A DNA stretch of 11,346 nucleotides from Pseudomonadota bacterium. Lineage in GTDB: Bacteria; Pseudomonadota; Alphaproteobacteria; Micropepsales; Micropepsaceae. A program made the translations under genes and the position numbers. Of the stretch, positions 843-4,411 are shown piece after piece (within the stretch, counting starts at the first letter, position 1; each line of letters begins with the position of its first letter). Below the pieces are notes generated by a model, which did no database searches, was not told the DNA's origin, and saw only the letters and a program-made list of their open reading frames with translations. The DNA lies in NCBI GenBank assembly GCA_021808875.1, contig JAKBAU010000093.1:1-11346 (forward strand), written 5' to 3'.

Positions 843-2162
843 ATGAGCATCTATGGTGCAATGTCTACCGCAGTGACGGCCCTCGACGCCTATTCGACGG
901 CGCTTGGAACCACCTCGGCCAATATCGCCAACCTCAACACGGTCGGTTACAAGACCGGCGCGACGAGCTTTTCGACGCTGCTGGCCTCGACCATGGGTAA
1001 TTCGGACGTGTCCTCCGCGGGGGTATCGTCTTCGACCGGACAGCTGATATCGCAGCAGGGGCAGTTGCAGACCACCAATTCGAACACCGATCTTGCCCTT
1101 ACGGGTAACGGATTCTTTGTGGTCAATACCTCGCCGACCTCGCCAGGCACCGCCAATTCACTTTACTACACCCGTGCGGGCAGTTTCACGCCGGACGCCC
1201 AGGGCAATCTGAAGAACGCCTCAGGATATTATCTGATGGGGTGGGCCCTTGATTCCAACGGCAATATTCCTTCCAACCAGAACGATCTGACACCGGTCAA
1301 TGTCAACGCCCTGGCGGGCAAGGCTGATCCCACCACCTCGATCAGCTATGCGGCCAATCTGCAGGCTTCCACGCCGGTCACCACCGGATACGTCGCGGGA
1401 GACATGGCCAATGGCACGGTGACACCGACCTTCCAGCGCACGGTCAACATCTTTGACGGGCAGGGCGGTTCTCAGCCCGTGCAGTTCTCCTTCGTCAAGA
1501 CTGCGGCCAATCAGTGGAGCTACGAGGTCAGCTATGAGGGAAGCTCTTCGAACATCTCTCCGGCAACCAATCCGATCTATTCCGGAACGATGAGCTTCAA
1601 CACCGATGGCACCCTTGCCAATGCCAATACATCGCTCAATCCACCCAGTGGCACGATCACCCTCAACCTGCCGTGGAATTCGGCATCGGGACTGTCTGCC
1701 CAGAGTGTCACAGTCAATCTGGGTACGGTGGGCAGCTCCAATGGCATGACCCAGTTCGACAGTACCTCGACCCAGGTGTCGTCCAACGTCAACGGTGCGC
1801 TGTTCGGCTCGCTGACCGGCGTCAGTGTCGACAACAACGGCGTTGTGACGGCCCAGTTCTCGAACGGTTTGACACAGGATATCTACAAGCTGCCAGTGGC
1901 GACGTTTGCCAATCCCAATGGTCTGGATGCCGCCAACGGTCAGGCCTACACGACCTCGAATAATTCAGGTACGCCCAGCATCAGCTTGGCCAATACCGGT
2001 GGTGCCGGCGCGATCAACTCCAAGTCACTTGAGTCATCGACCGTCAATCTCGATACGGAATTCACCAATCTGATCAGCATGCAGAGTGCCTATTCGGCAG
2101 CGTCGAAGGTTATCACGACCTCGTCAAGCATGCTCAATACGCTTCTGGCAGTGATCCCATAA
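843..2162 (+). CDS. flgE: Flagellar hook protein FlgE
   Basis: The 439-residue product is the structural subunit of the hook, the universal joint between basal body and filament. The N-terminal rod/hook/HAP helix is present (residues 1-35, with ALGTTSANIANLNTVGYK), followed by the FlgE/F/G-type motif DLALTGNGFFVV at about residues 83-94. The C-terminal helix at about residues 395-439 (LDTEFTNLISMQSAYSAASKVITTSSSMLNTLL) is the partner of the N-terminal helix in the inner hook core. The middle is Ser/Thr/Asn/Gly-rich and poor in Cys, as expected for the variable outer domains. The length fits FlgE rather than the shorter rod proteins FlgF and FlgG. The ATG is supported by AAGGAA about 7 nt upstream. 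A strong hairpin follows the stop codon by six bases. Confidence 0.95.
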   Translation: MSIYGAMSTAVTALDAYSTALGTTSANIANLNTVGYKTGATSFSTLLASTMGNSDVSSAGVSSSTGQLISQQGQLQTTNSNTDLALTGNGFFVVNTSPTSPGTANSLYYTRAGSFTPDAQGNLKNASGYYLMGWALDSNGNIPSNQNDLTPVNVNALAGKADPTTSISYAANLQASTPVTTGYVAGDMANGTVTPTFQRTVNIFDGQGGSQPVQFSFVKTAANQWSYEVSYEGSSSNISPATNPIYSGTMSFNTDGTLANANTSLNPPSGTITLNLPWNSASGLSAQSVTVNLGTVGSSNGMTQFDSTSTQVSSNVNGALFGSLTGVSVDNNGVVTAQFSNGLTQDIYKLPVATFANPNGLDAANGQAYTTSNNSGTPSISLANTGGAGAINSKSLESSTVNLDTEFTNLISMQSAYSAASKVITTSSSMLNTLLAVIP

Positions 2163-2210: not shown

Positions 2211-2318
2211 GAATTGCGCGCATGTCGTTTCAACTTCCTTTACCATGCCGCTTGGCCCTTTTTTAAAGCGCGAGGACCTATGTTCGCAGTGGGTAGTGAG
2301 TCGGGAGAACAGACGAAT
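2211..2318 (+). promoter_or_regulatory. sciP upstream region with a weak CtrA-like half box
   Basis: About 110 bases lie between the flgE hairpin and the preferred sciP start. TTTACCAT at 2239-2246 differs by one base from the TTAACCAT half of the CtrA box, but the expected second half is missing. A ribosome-site-like GGGAG lies at 2303-2307, 11 nt before the ATG at 2319. A longer in-frame start (ATG at 2280, with GAGGA at 2272-2276 only 3 nt away) is possible. A promoter here is inferred from the strong hairpin upstream. Confidence 0.35.
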
Positions 2319-2540
2319 ATGGGCGAAGACCGCAGAGCGCGTGCGACATATGTAATTGGGCCGGATGGCAGTCCCCTGACCTTGGCGGATTTGCCGGCCC
2401 CTGGCACCACACGCTGGGTGATCCGACGCAAGGCCGAAGTGGTTGCAGCGGTGCGTGGCGGATTACTCAGTCTTGAGGATGCCTGCCGGCGCTATACGCT
2501 GACGATCGAAGAATTTCTCGGCTGGCAACGGGCGATCTAG
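2319..2540 (+). CDS. sciP: SciP-like DUF1153 protein (CtrA inhibitor), C-terminally truncated by an in-frame amber codon
   Basis: The 73-residue product begins MGEDRRARATYVIGPDGSPL and contains LADLPAPGTTRWVIRRKAEVV and the helix-turn-helix region at about residues 38-73 (AAVRGGLLSLEDACRRYTLT, then EEFLGWQRAI). This is the highly conserved alphaproteobacterial DUF1153 family, whose Caulobacter member SciP binds CtrA and blocks activation of CtrA-dependent promoters in swarmer cells. The position between flgE and fliF agrees with the Caulobacter layout. The frame stops at TAG (2538-2540), but the same frame continues with a family-like tail to a second TAG at 2592-2594. Without the first stop the protein would be about 91 residues, close to the usual size of about 90. 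The start at 2319 is chosen on family length and GGGAG upstream; ATG 2280 and GTG 2289 are in-frame alternatives. It may be a working short form, a recent pseudogene or a sequence error. Confidence 0.85.
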   Translation: MGEDRRARATYVIGPDGSPLTLADLPAPGTTRWVIRRKAEVVAAVRGGLLSLEDACRRYTLTIEEFLGWQRAI

Positions 2541-2594
2541 CGCTTTGGTCTGGCCGGGCTGCGTGCCACACGGGTGCAGCAATATCGCCATTAG
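2541..2594 (+). other. In-frame continuation of sciP beyond the amber stop
   Basis: Directly after the TAG at 2538-2540 the sciP frame goes on with 17 codons, RFGLAGLRATRVQQYRH, then TAG at 2592-2594. The residues resemble the C-terminal end of DUF1153/SciP proteins (a GLAGLRATRIQQYR-like tail), so this DNA was evidently part of the coding sequence. A single base change (for example GAG or CAG to TAG) would account for the break. There is no start codon or ribosome site for separate translation of the tail. Confidence 0.8.
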
Positions 2595-2612: not shown

Positions 2613-2662
2613 GGGGACAGCGGTACAGTCACGTAACTGTGTCGCTGTCTTTGTGTTTGTCG
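2613..2662 (+). terminator. Imperfect dyad between sciP and fliF; terminator-like hairpin or operator
   Basis: ACAGCGGTACAGT (2617-2629) and ACTGTGTCGCTGT (2636-2648) form a 13-bp stem with two G-U positions around the loop CACGTA. The stem can extend outward by one G-C pair and a few G-U pairs. It is followed by a T-rich run (CTTTGTGTTTGTCGTT). It could end sciP transcription. Because it sits just upstream of the CtrA-like box of fliF, it could instead be a protein-binding dyad. The right arm contains TGTCGCT, close to the TGTCGCG motif that I recall being reported for SciP. Confidence 0.5.
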
Positions 2663-2679
2663 TTAATGCTGCCTTTACC
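2663..2679 (+). promoter_or_regulatory. Probable CtrA box of the fliF operon promoter
   Basis: TTAATGCTGCCTTTACC reads as TTAA, seven bases, TTTACC. The CtrA consensus is TTAA-N7-TTAA(C), so there is one mismatch in the second half. In Caulobacter the fliF operon is an early (class II) operon activated by CtrA. A box overlapping the -35 position would place a start site roughly 30-40 bases downstream, around 2705-2715, just before the fliF ribosome site. CCTAGCAG at 2698-2705 is only a loose -10 candidate. A second, weaker TTAG-N7-TAAA arrangement lies at 2595-2609. Confidence 0.55.
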
Positions 2680-2735
2680 CAGAGGCGGCAATGTTTGCCT
2701 AGCAGAAGGTGCCGGGGGATGTGCTCGCGGCTCAC

Positions 2736-2752
2736 GAGGGGGCAGGACATTG
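2736..2752 (+). promoter_or_regulatory. Ribosome binding site and TTG start that set the fliF N-terminus
   Basis: GAGGGGG at 2736-2742 lies 7 nt before TTG 2750-2752. Translation from this TTG gives MPEFLRGVGAARFGVMAG, the normal beginning of FliF just before its first membrane helix. The upstream in-frame candidates (GTG 2639 and ATG 2666) would add a Cys/Gly-rich extension unlike FliF. They also lie within the dyad and the CtrA-like box, respectively. Confidence 0.65.
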
Positions 2753-4411
2753 CCGGAATTCCTGAGAGGTGTCGGCGCCGCACGGTTCGGCGTGATGGCA
2801 GGAGTAGCTGCGGCGCTGACAGCGTTCTTTCTTTATGTTGCGGATGTCATCGCGACACCGCCGCAATCCATCCTCTTCGCCGGGCTCTCGACCCGGGATG
2901 CCAGCCAGATCACTGCCAAGCTCGATACCATGAACGTGCACTACACGCTCGAAGGCGGTGGCGGCACCATCCTTGTGCCGGCGGACCGTGTCGAGAAGCT
3001 GCGCATGGACATGGCGACGCAGAACCTGCCTTCGGCCGGCGTCGGTTATGAGATCTTCGACAAGAGCAATGCCTTCGGTACCTCCGCCTTCGTGGAACGT
3101 ATAGATGAACTGCGGGCATTGCAGGGTGAACTGACCCGCTCGATTGAGACCATCGATGGGATTGAGGCGGCGCGTGTACATCTCGTCCTGCCGCATCGAC
3201 AGATTTTTGCGCGCAACAGCACGCCGCCCACCGCGTCGGTGGTGCTGAAGGCGGAAAGCCAGCTCAGTCGCGAGCAGGTTCTTGCCATCCAGCATCTGGT
3301 GGCCGCCGCAGTGGCCGGGCTCCAGCCGGATCGGGTCGCGGTGATCGATGATCATGGTGATCTACTGGCCGGCGGAGATGGCAATGCCGGCCAGGACGTG
3401 ATGGCGGCCCGTCAGGATCAGCAGACCGCGGATTTTGAAAGCCGGCTCGAGAAGCATATCCAGAGCATCGTGGCGAGTGTGGTCGGACCAGGGCATGTGC
3501 GGGTCCAGGTGGCGGCCGACATCAAGTACAACCACACCCAGCAGACTTCCGAAACCTTCGATCCCAACAGCAAAGTTCCGCTTTCCACGCAGTCGGTTGA
3601 CCAGTCCTCGACCAGCACCCAAGGCCAGGCGAGCAATGCGGTGTCGGTGTCCAATGCCCTGCCGGGCAAGCAGGGCACGACTGCCGGTGGCGGCAATCAG
3701 TCGCTCTCCAAGACCCGGCGCAGCGAAGAGACCACCAATTACGAGATCTCCAAGACGACGACGCTGTCGGTCAATGATGGCGGCGATCTCAAGCGTCTTT
3801 CGGTCGCGGTGGTGGTCGATGATCAGCGCACCCCCTTGGCCTCCGGCAAGACCAAGGAAGCGCCGCTGAGCAAGCAGGAACTGGCTGAGATTACGAGCCT
3901 GGTAAAAACTGCCATCGGCTTTGACAAGGCCCGTGGCGACCGGGTCGAGGTGGTCAACATGCCCTTTGCCCGCATGGATGAGGGTCCCTTGCCCCCCGCC
4001 GCAGCGCCGCTGCTGGGGCTTAGCAGTGCCTATTGGTTCAAGATCATCGAAGCGGCCATTCTCTCGATCACTGCTCTTCTCATTGGCCTGTTCGTCGGCC
4101 GTCCGCTGATCCGCAGCATGTTTGCAGGCACGAGCGTGGCGCCGGTGGGGCCGGTGGGCGTCGCCCAGCTGGGAGCGCCCCAGCCCATGGGACAGCTGGC
4201 GGCTCCTGGTGCTGCGCCAGCGCAGCTTGCCGATGGCTCAGCGCCGCCGGCAGCCGCCCTGCCGCCACCGCCCAGTGGCGCCATGATCGACATTTCTCGC
4301 ATCGAAGGGCAGGTGCGCGAATCCTCCATCCGCAAGGTCGGCGAGGTCGTCGACGCCCATCCCGAAGAAGCCCTCGCGATCCTGCGCACCTGGCTCCATC
4401 AACCGGCGTAA
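2750..4411 (+). CDS. fliF: Flagellar MS-ring protein FliF
   Basis: With the TTG start, the product is 553 residues, usual for FliF, which forms the inner-membrane MS ring on which the motor and export gate are built. A first membrane helix spans about residues 12-34. The YscJ/FliF ring-building region follows, with STPPTASVVLKA preceded by GIEAARVHLVLPHRQIFAR. A Ser/Gln/Asn-rich periplasmic linker precedes the second membrane helix at about residues 428-455 (YWFKIIEAAILSITALLIGLF). A Pro/Ala-rich stretch (about 462-510) leads to the C-terminal FliG-binding segment (IRKVGEVVDAHPEEALAILRTWL). It is the first gene of the probable fliF-flhG operon, six bases before fliG, preceded by a CtrA-like box. 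Longer in-frame starts exist but are not favoured. Confidence 0.95.
   Translation: MPEFLRGVGAARFGVMAGVAAALTAFFLYVADVIATPPQSILFAGLSTRDASQITAKLDTMNVHYTLEGGGGTILVPADRVEKLRMDMATQNLPSAGVGYEIFDKSNAFGTSAFVERIDELRALQGELTRSIETIDGIEAARVHLVLPHRQIFARNSTPPTASVVLKAESQLSREQVLAIQHLVAAAVAGLQPDRVAVIDDHGDLLAGGDGNAGQDVMAARQDQQTADFESRLEKHIQSIVASVVGPGHVRVQVAADIKYNHTQQTSETFDPNSKVPLSTQSVDQSSTSTQGQASNAVSVSNALPGKQGTTAGGGNQSLSKTRRSEETTNYEISKTTTLSVNDGGDLKRLSVAVVVDDQRTPLASGKTKEAPLSKQELAEITSLVKTAIGFDKARGDRVEVVNMPFARMDEGPLPPAAAPLLGLSSAYWFKIIEAAILSITALLIGLFVGRPLIRSMFAGTSVAPVGPVGVAQLGAPQPMGQLAAPGAAPAQLADGSAPPAAALPPPPSGAMIDISRIEGQVRESSIRKVGEVVDAHPEEALAILRTWLHQPA

Follow-up and report, generated by a model that had tools for sequence, protein, structure and literature searches.

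An in-frame amber codon in a sciP gene with an intact conserved tail: recent nonsense change or single-base error

Does the sciP gene of this alphaproteobacterium encode a shortened form of the CtrA inhibitor SciP, or does a single assembled base only make it appear so? The question arises in contig JAKBAU010000093.1, analysed here at its full length of 11,346 bases (the window), where the sciP frame opens at ATG 2319, runs for 73 codons ending ...GWQRAI, meets TAG at 2538-2540 and then continues without frameshift for 17 same-frame tail codons, RFGLAGLRATRVQQYRH, before closing at TAG 2592-2594 (translation of 2319-2594). Our translation agrees with the initial annotation, which had placed the first stop behind codon 73 and counted 17 further family-like codons in frame up to a second one. 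In another strain of the same species (genome G000, ~96% complete), where the stretch corresponds to contig C149 7265-18610, sciP is intact, with 91 codons and a glutamate codon at place 74. Our preferred reading, adopted with modest confidence, is that an otherwise normal sciP recently acquired a one-base nonsense change in the lineage of this contig alone. The balance tips only slightly towards a real allele and away from a consensus error, and neither amounts to a new kind of gene or system, the gene being known and the change ordinary. The sciP features of the window are these:

2319..2540, plus strand: sciP as read in the contig, 73 codons and the in-frame TAG (NF051866, 110.0 bits, model positions 3-73 of 90)
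2538..2540, plus strand: TAG at codon 74, a glutamate codon in G000; derived single-base transversion (comparison with relatives)
2541..2594, plus strand: undecayed stretch encoding the conserved SciP tail, 17 sense codons long and closed by the usual stop (translation, alignment)
2280..2318, plus strand: possible N-terminal extension of 13 codons from an upstream in-frame ATG (86-residue form in the protein database)

The 73-residue form scored 110.0 bits against NCBIfam NF051866, 'CtrA inhibitor SciP' (cut-off 100), and 107.1 bits against Pfam PF06627, DUF1153 (cut-off 23.5), compared with 140.3 and 137.6 bits for the intact conspecific protein. Its matches stop at model positions 73/90 and 70/87, respectively, where the intact P0002 reaches position 90 in NF051866; as a full-length SciP, of about 90 residues with a C-terminal GLRxTRxQxYR tail, the window copy thus falls short. 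The lost segment holds the invariant residues G80, L81, R82, T84, Q87, Y89 and R90 in an alignment of 40 proteins that we chose (36 of 120 listed database matches and four loci, leaving out six odd-tailed proteins described below). Among the matches listed, the nearest named relatives were Rhizomicrobium proteins from metagenome-assembled genomes, at no more than 86% identity (P0010), and the genome matches were alphaproteobacterial assemblies.

Comparison with relatives indicates where the change lies. Codon 74 is a sense codon in G000 and in the other aligned relatives, G020, G005, G003 and G017, and none of them shares the window's stop base, although at several other sites the odd base is that of G000. 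The tail remnant differs from G000 at position 2588 only, synonymously, with the window state common to the other four relatives. Because the 17 codons behind the stop encode the family's conserved tail and the conspecific gene reads through with a sense codon, the truncation pattern is more than chance. Sequence comparison shows the stop to be derived, a transversion at a single base confined to this contig among the compared sequences.

The main rival, one wrongly sequenced or assembled base in an organism whose sciP is intact, we regard as a serious contender, somewhat short of an even chance. It fits the sense codon at place 74 in the aligned relatives and in close database proteins, the shortness of the contig and the lack of further disruption nearby, but, the stop aside, the differences from G000 mostly resemble true polymorphism. 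There are 17 in the 11,346 bases, 13 of them synonymous; the remaining four comprise the sciP stop, a pair within a single FliF codon that gives the window Pro for the Ser of G000, and one FliG change that gives it Ile for Met. By our reading of the site table, eight of the 17 are derived, or probably derived, in the window, six of these being synonymous. Unselected single-base changes here would be synonymous in 26-29% of cases, and the chance of at least 13 of 17 without selection is ~2e-5 to 8e-5 (~0.005 to 0.01 for at least six of eight). From this synonymous excess we take the contig to represent a real lineage, most of whose differences are genuine, and not to be generally error-rich.

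Several points nonetheless weigh against a real nonsense allele. Nonsense makes up just 2.3-2.7% of the unselected single-base changes expected here, and in a conserved regulator a real one should be rarer still. Oxidative damage during library preparation also produces changes of the same type, the flagellar cluster elsewhere in the window is undecayed, and an error in this one assembled base is a real possibility. The initial annotation had offered a recent nonsense mutation and a sequence error as alternatives, and both survive, as the assembled sequence does not separate them. It had also looked to a sense codon at this place, in close relatives or in the strain itself, as evidence against its case: the close relatives carry one, and the contig of this strain reads TAG.

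An open frame and tail past the stop could also mean programmed or suppressed read-through yielding two SciP forms, as the initial annotation had proposed. We consider this very improbable: the stop is absent in all five relatives aligned at codon 74, which makes an evolved two-form scheme unlikely, and the scan for amber-suppressor tRNAs that had been suggested found the amber-reading anticodon CTA in none of the 41 tRNA genes identified in G000. As G000 is a different strain with an incomplete genome, a suppressor tRNA specific to the window's strain, or one overlooked, is conceivable. Additionally, TAG serves as an ordinary stop, ending fliH and fliN, as previously noted, and also 5 of 27 mechanical open reading frames (ORFs) of at least 250 residues in 40 kb of the same G000 contig (some of them perhaps spurious). 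General amber recoding is therefore unlikely on sequence grounds, in line with the earlier view.

That many family members naturally have a short SciP is the least probable of the explanations, to be entertained only in passing, and no support for it was found in the searches that follow. A database search with the first 73 residues as query scored 7,997 candidates and listed 120 of 7,990 matches; breaks nearer the start of sciP would be under-represented among matches to such a query. Contrary to the suggestion that many DUF1153 proteins might end at this point, all 119 proteins other than the truncated P0001 among the matches listed extend beyond residue 73, 113 of them with the complete tail pattern. 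The other six, which lack a normal tail (P0018, P0020, P0030, P0056, P0089 and P0114), mostly look frameshifted. In a class-wide search, in which 144 of 385 genomes had a match, there was no internal stop among the matches listed.

Within the closer relatives, PF06627 matched in 68 of 100 genomes (G000 and 99 relatives), and 3 of 109 matches, in G017, G015 and G018, carried an internal stop. The best match reached at least 125 bits in 46 of 60 genus genomes (hand count, G000 included), and 45 of these 46 lacked an internal stop, the exception being G017. Stops were found in none of 53 FliF and none of 63 ribosomal S15 matches in the genus, taken as control genes; these counts give no sign that stops are over-represented in sciP. 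The copies in G015 (TAA; L034 501-731) and G018 (TGA; L035 124-297) are diverged DUF1153 sequences.

In G017, a strong SciP match (L033 1486-1758, contig C179) has TAG in place of Trp69, five codons before the window stop and followed by an intact tail. As in the window, an amber codon interrupts SciP within the final quarter of the gene, here in another member of the genus; it differs in codon and base change, and lies in a fragmented assembly (~430 contigs, 82% complete). This congener argues against a base error in the window, though its stop too could be an error, and its independent amber codon is the one lead worth keeping. Since the window and G017 carry independent ambers within five codons, and 6 of 119 listed proteins are odd-tailed, it is conceivable, but in our estimate improbable, that natural populations of the group repeatedly lose the SciP tail, and that this state is selectable, keeps part of the function and loosens CtrA control.

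Judged from profile matches, nearly all flagellated congeners have SciP: counted by hand across the 60 genomes, 41 of 43 with FliF also had a PF06627 match. The two exceptions are G036, an assembly 58% complete, and G051, in which FliF is matched by a fragment at the start of a contig; absence of a match in incomplete assemblies is weak evidence. Among the 17 genomes without FliF, 13 still had a PF06627 match, five of them at 125 bits or more. Two congeners, G045 and G040 (99% complete), have a strong SciP match and no FliF match, as if SciP had outlasted the flagellum.

If the base is real, what would the change do? The nonsense change would leave a SciP of 73 residues, or of 86 if translation starts at ATG 2280. 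In the modelled DNA-binding fold, the stop falls within the third helix: the product would retain helices one and two but lack the second half of helix three and the GLRxTRxQxYR tail. With these losses, a weakened CtrA brake is likely if the base is real; the truncated SciP would act weakly or not at all, and CtrA-driven flagellar and cell-cycle genes would then be less restrained. Loss of function remains an inference, because the 73-residue form still passes the SciP cut-off and models well (mean predicted local distance difference test score, pLDDT, 86.7), and the tail itself is modelled with low confidence (57 and 42 as block means).

The 86-residue version exists in the protein database as P0001, assigned there to a contig of 11,346 bases, as long as the window. 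P0001 is the representative of a two-sequence cluster, whose other member could be another truncated copy. ATG 2280 has a GAGG-type ribosome site immediately upstream and may be the real sciP start; it is found in G020 and G005 and absent in G017.

The surroundings of sciP are flagellar by profile match:

843..2162, plus strand: FlgE-type hook protein, upstream neighbour, open throughout (ORF, profile match)
2639..4411, plus strand: FliF, downstream neighbour, open throughout; longest ORF, true start probably further in (ORF, profile match)

GTG 2639 is possibly not the genuine fliF start. Inside this longest fliF ORF lies a CtrA-box-like site (2663-2677) with one mismatch, which was not significant by shuffles. 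CtrA itself is encoded in G000 (NF045991, 421.9 bits; cut-off 350).

A real stop would be a natural allele of a regulator that the title of Tan et al. 2010 reportedly calls essential in Caulobacter, in a species whose genome G000 holds one SciP-family match, and would make it possible to ask if the CtrA brake is dispensable in nature. An error would make the locus a mere caution on single-base calls in short contigs.

Compared with known SciP (NF051866; PF06627), the window gene shares the sequence and the placement between flgE and fliF, with the single copy and the CtrA gene seen in G000, but it ends at codon 74 of 91, without the invariant tail. The Caulobacter sciP alleles T24I and T65A have reduced effect and are epistatic to mucR1/2 loss (PMC4241560). 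The likeness lies in altered sciP alleles of reduced effect, which for the window is a prediction only; the Caulobacter alleles are missense changes in a laboratory strain, whereas the window carries a truncation in an uncharacterised lineage.
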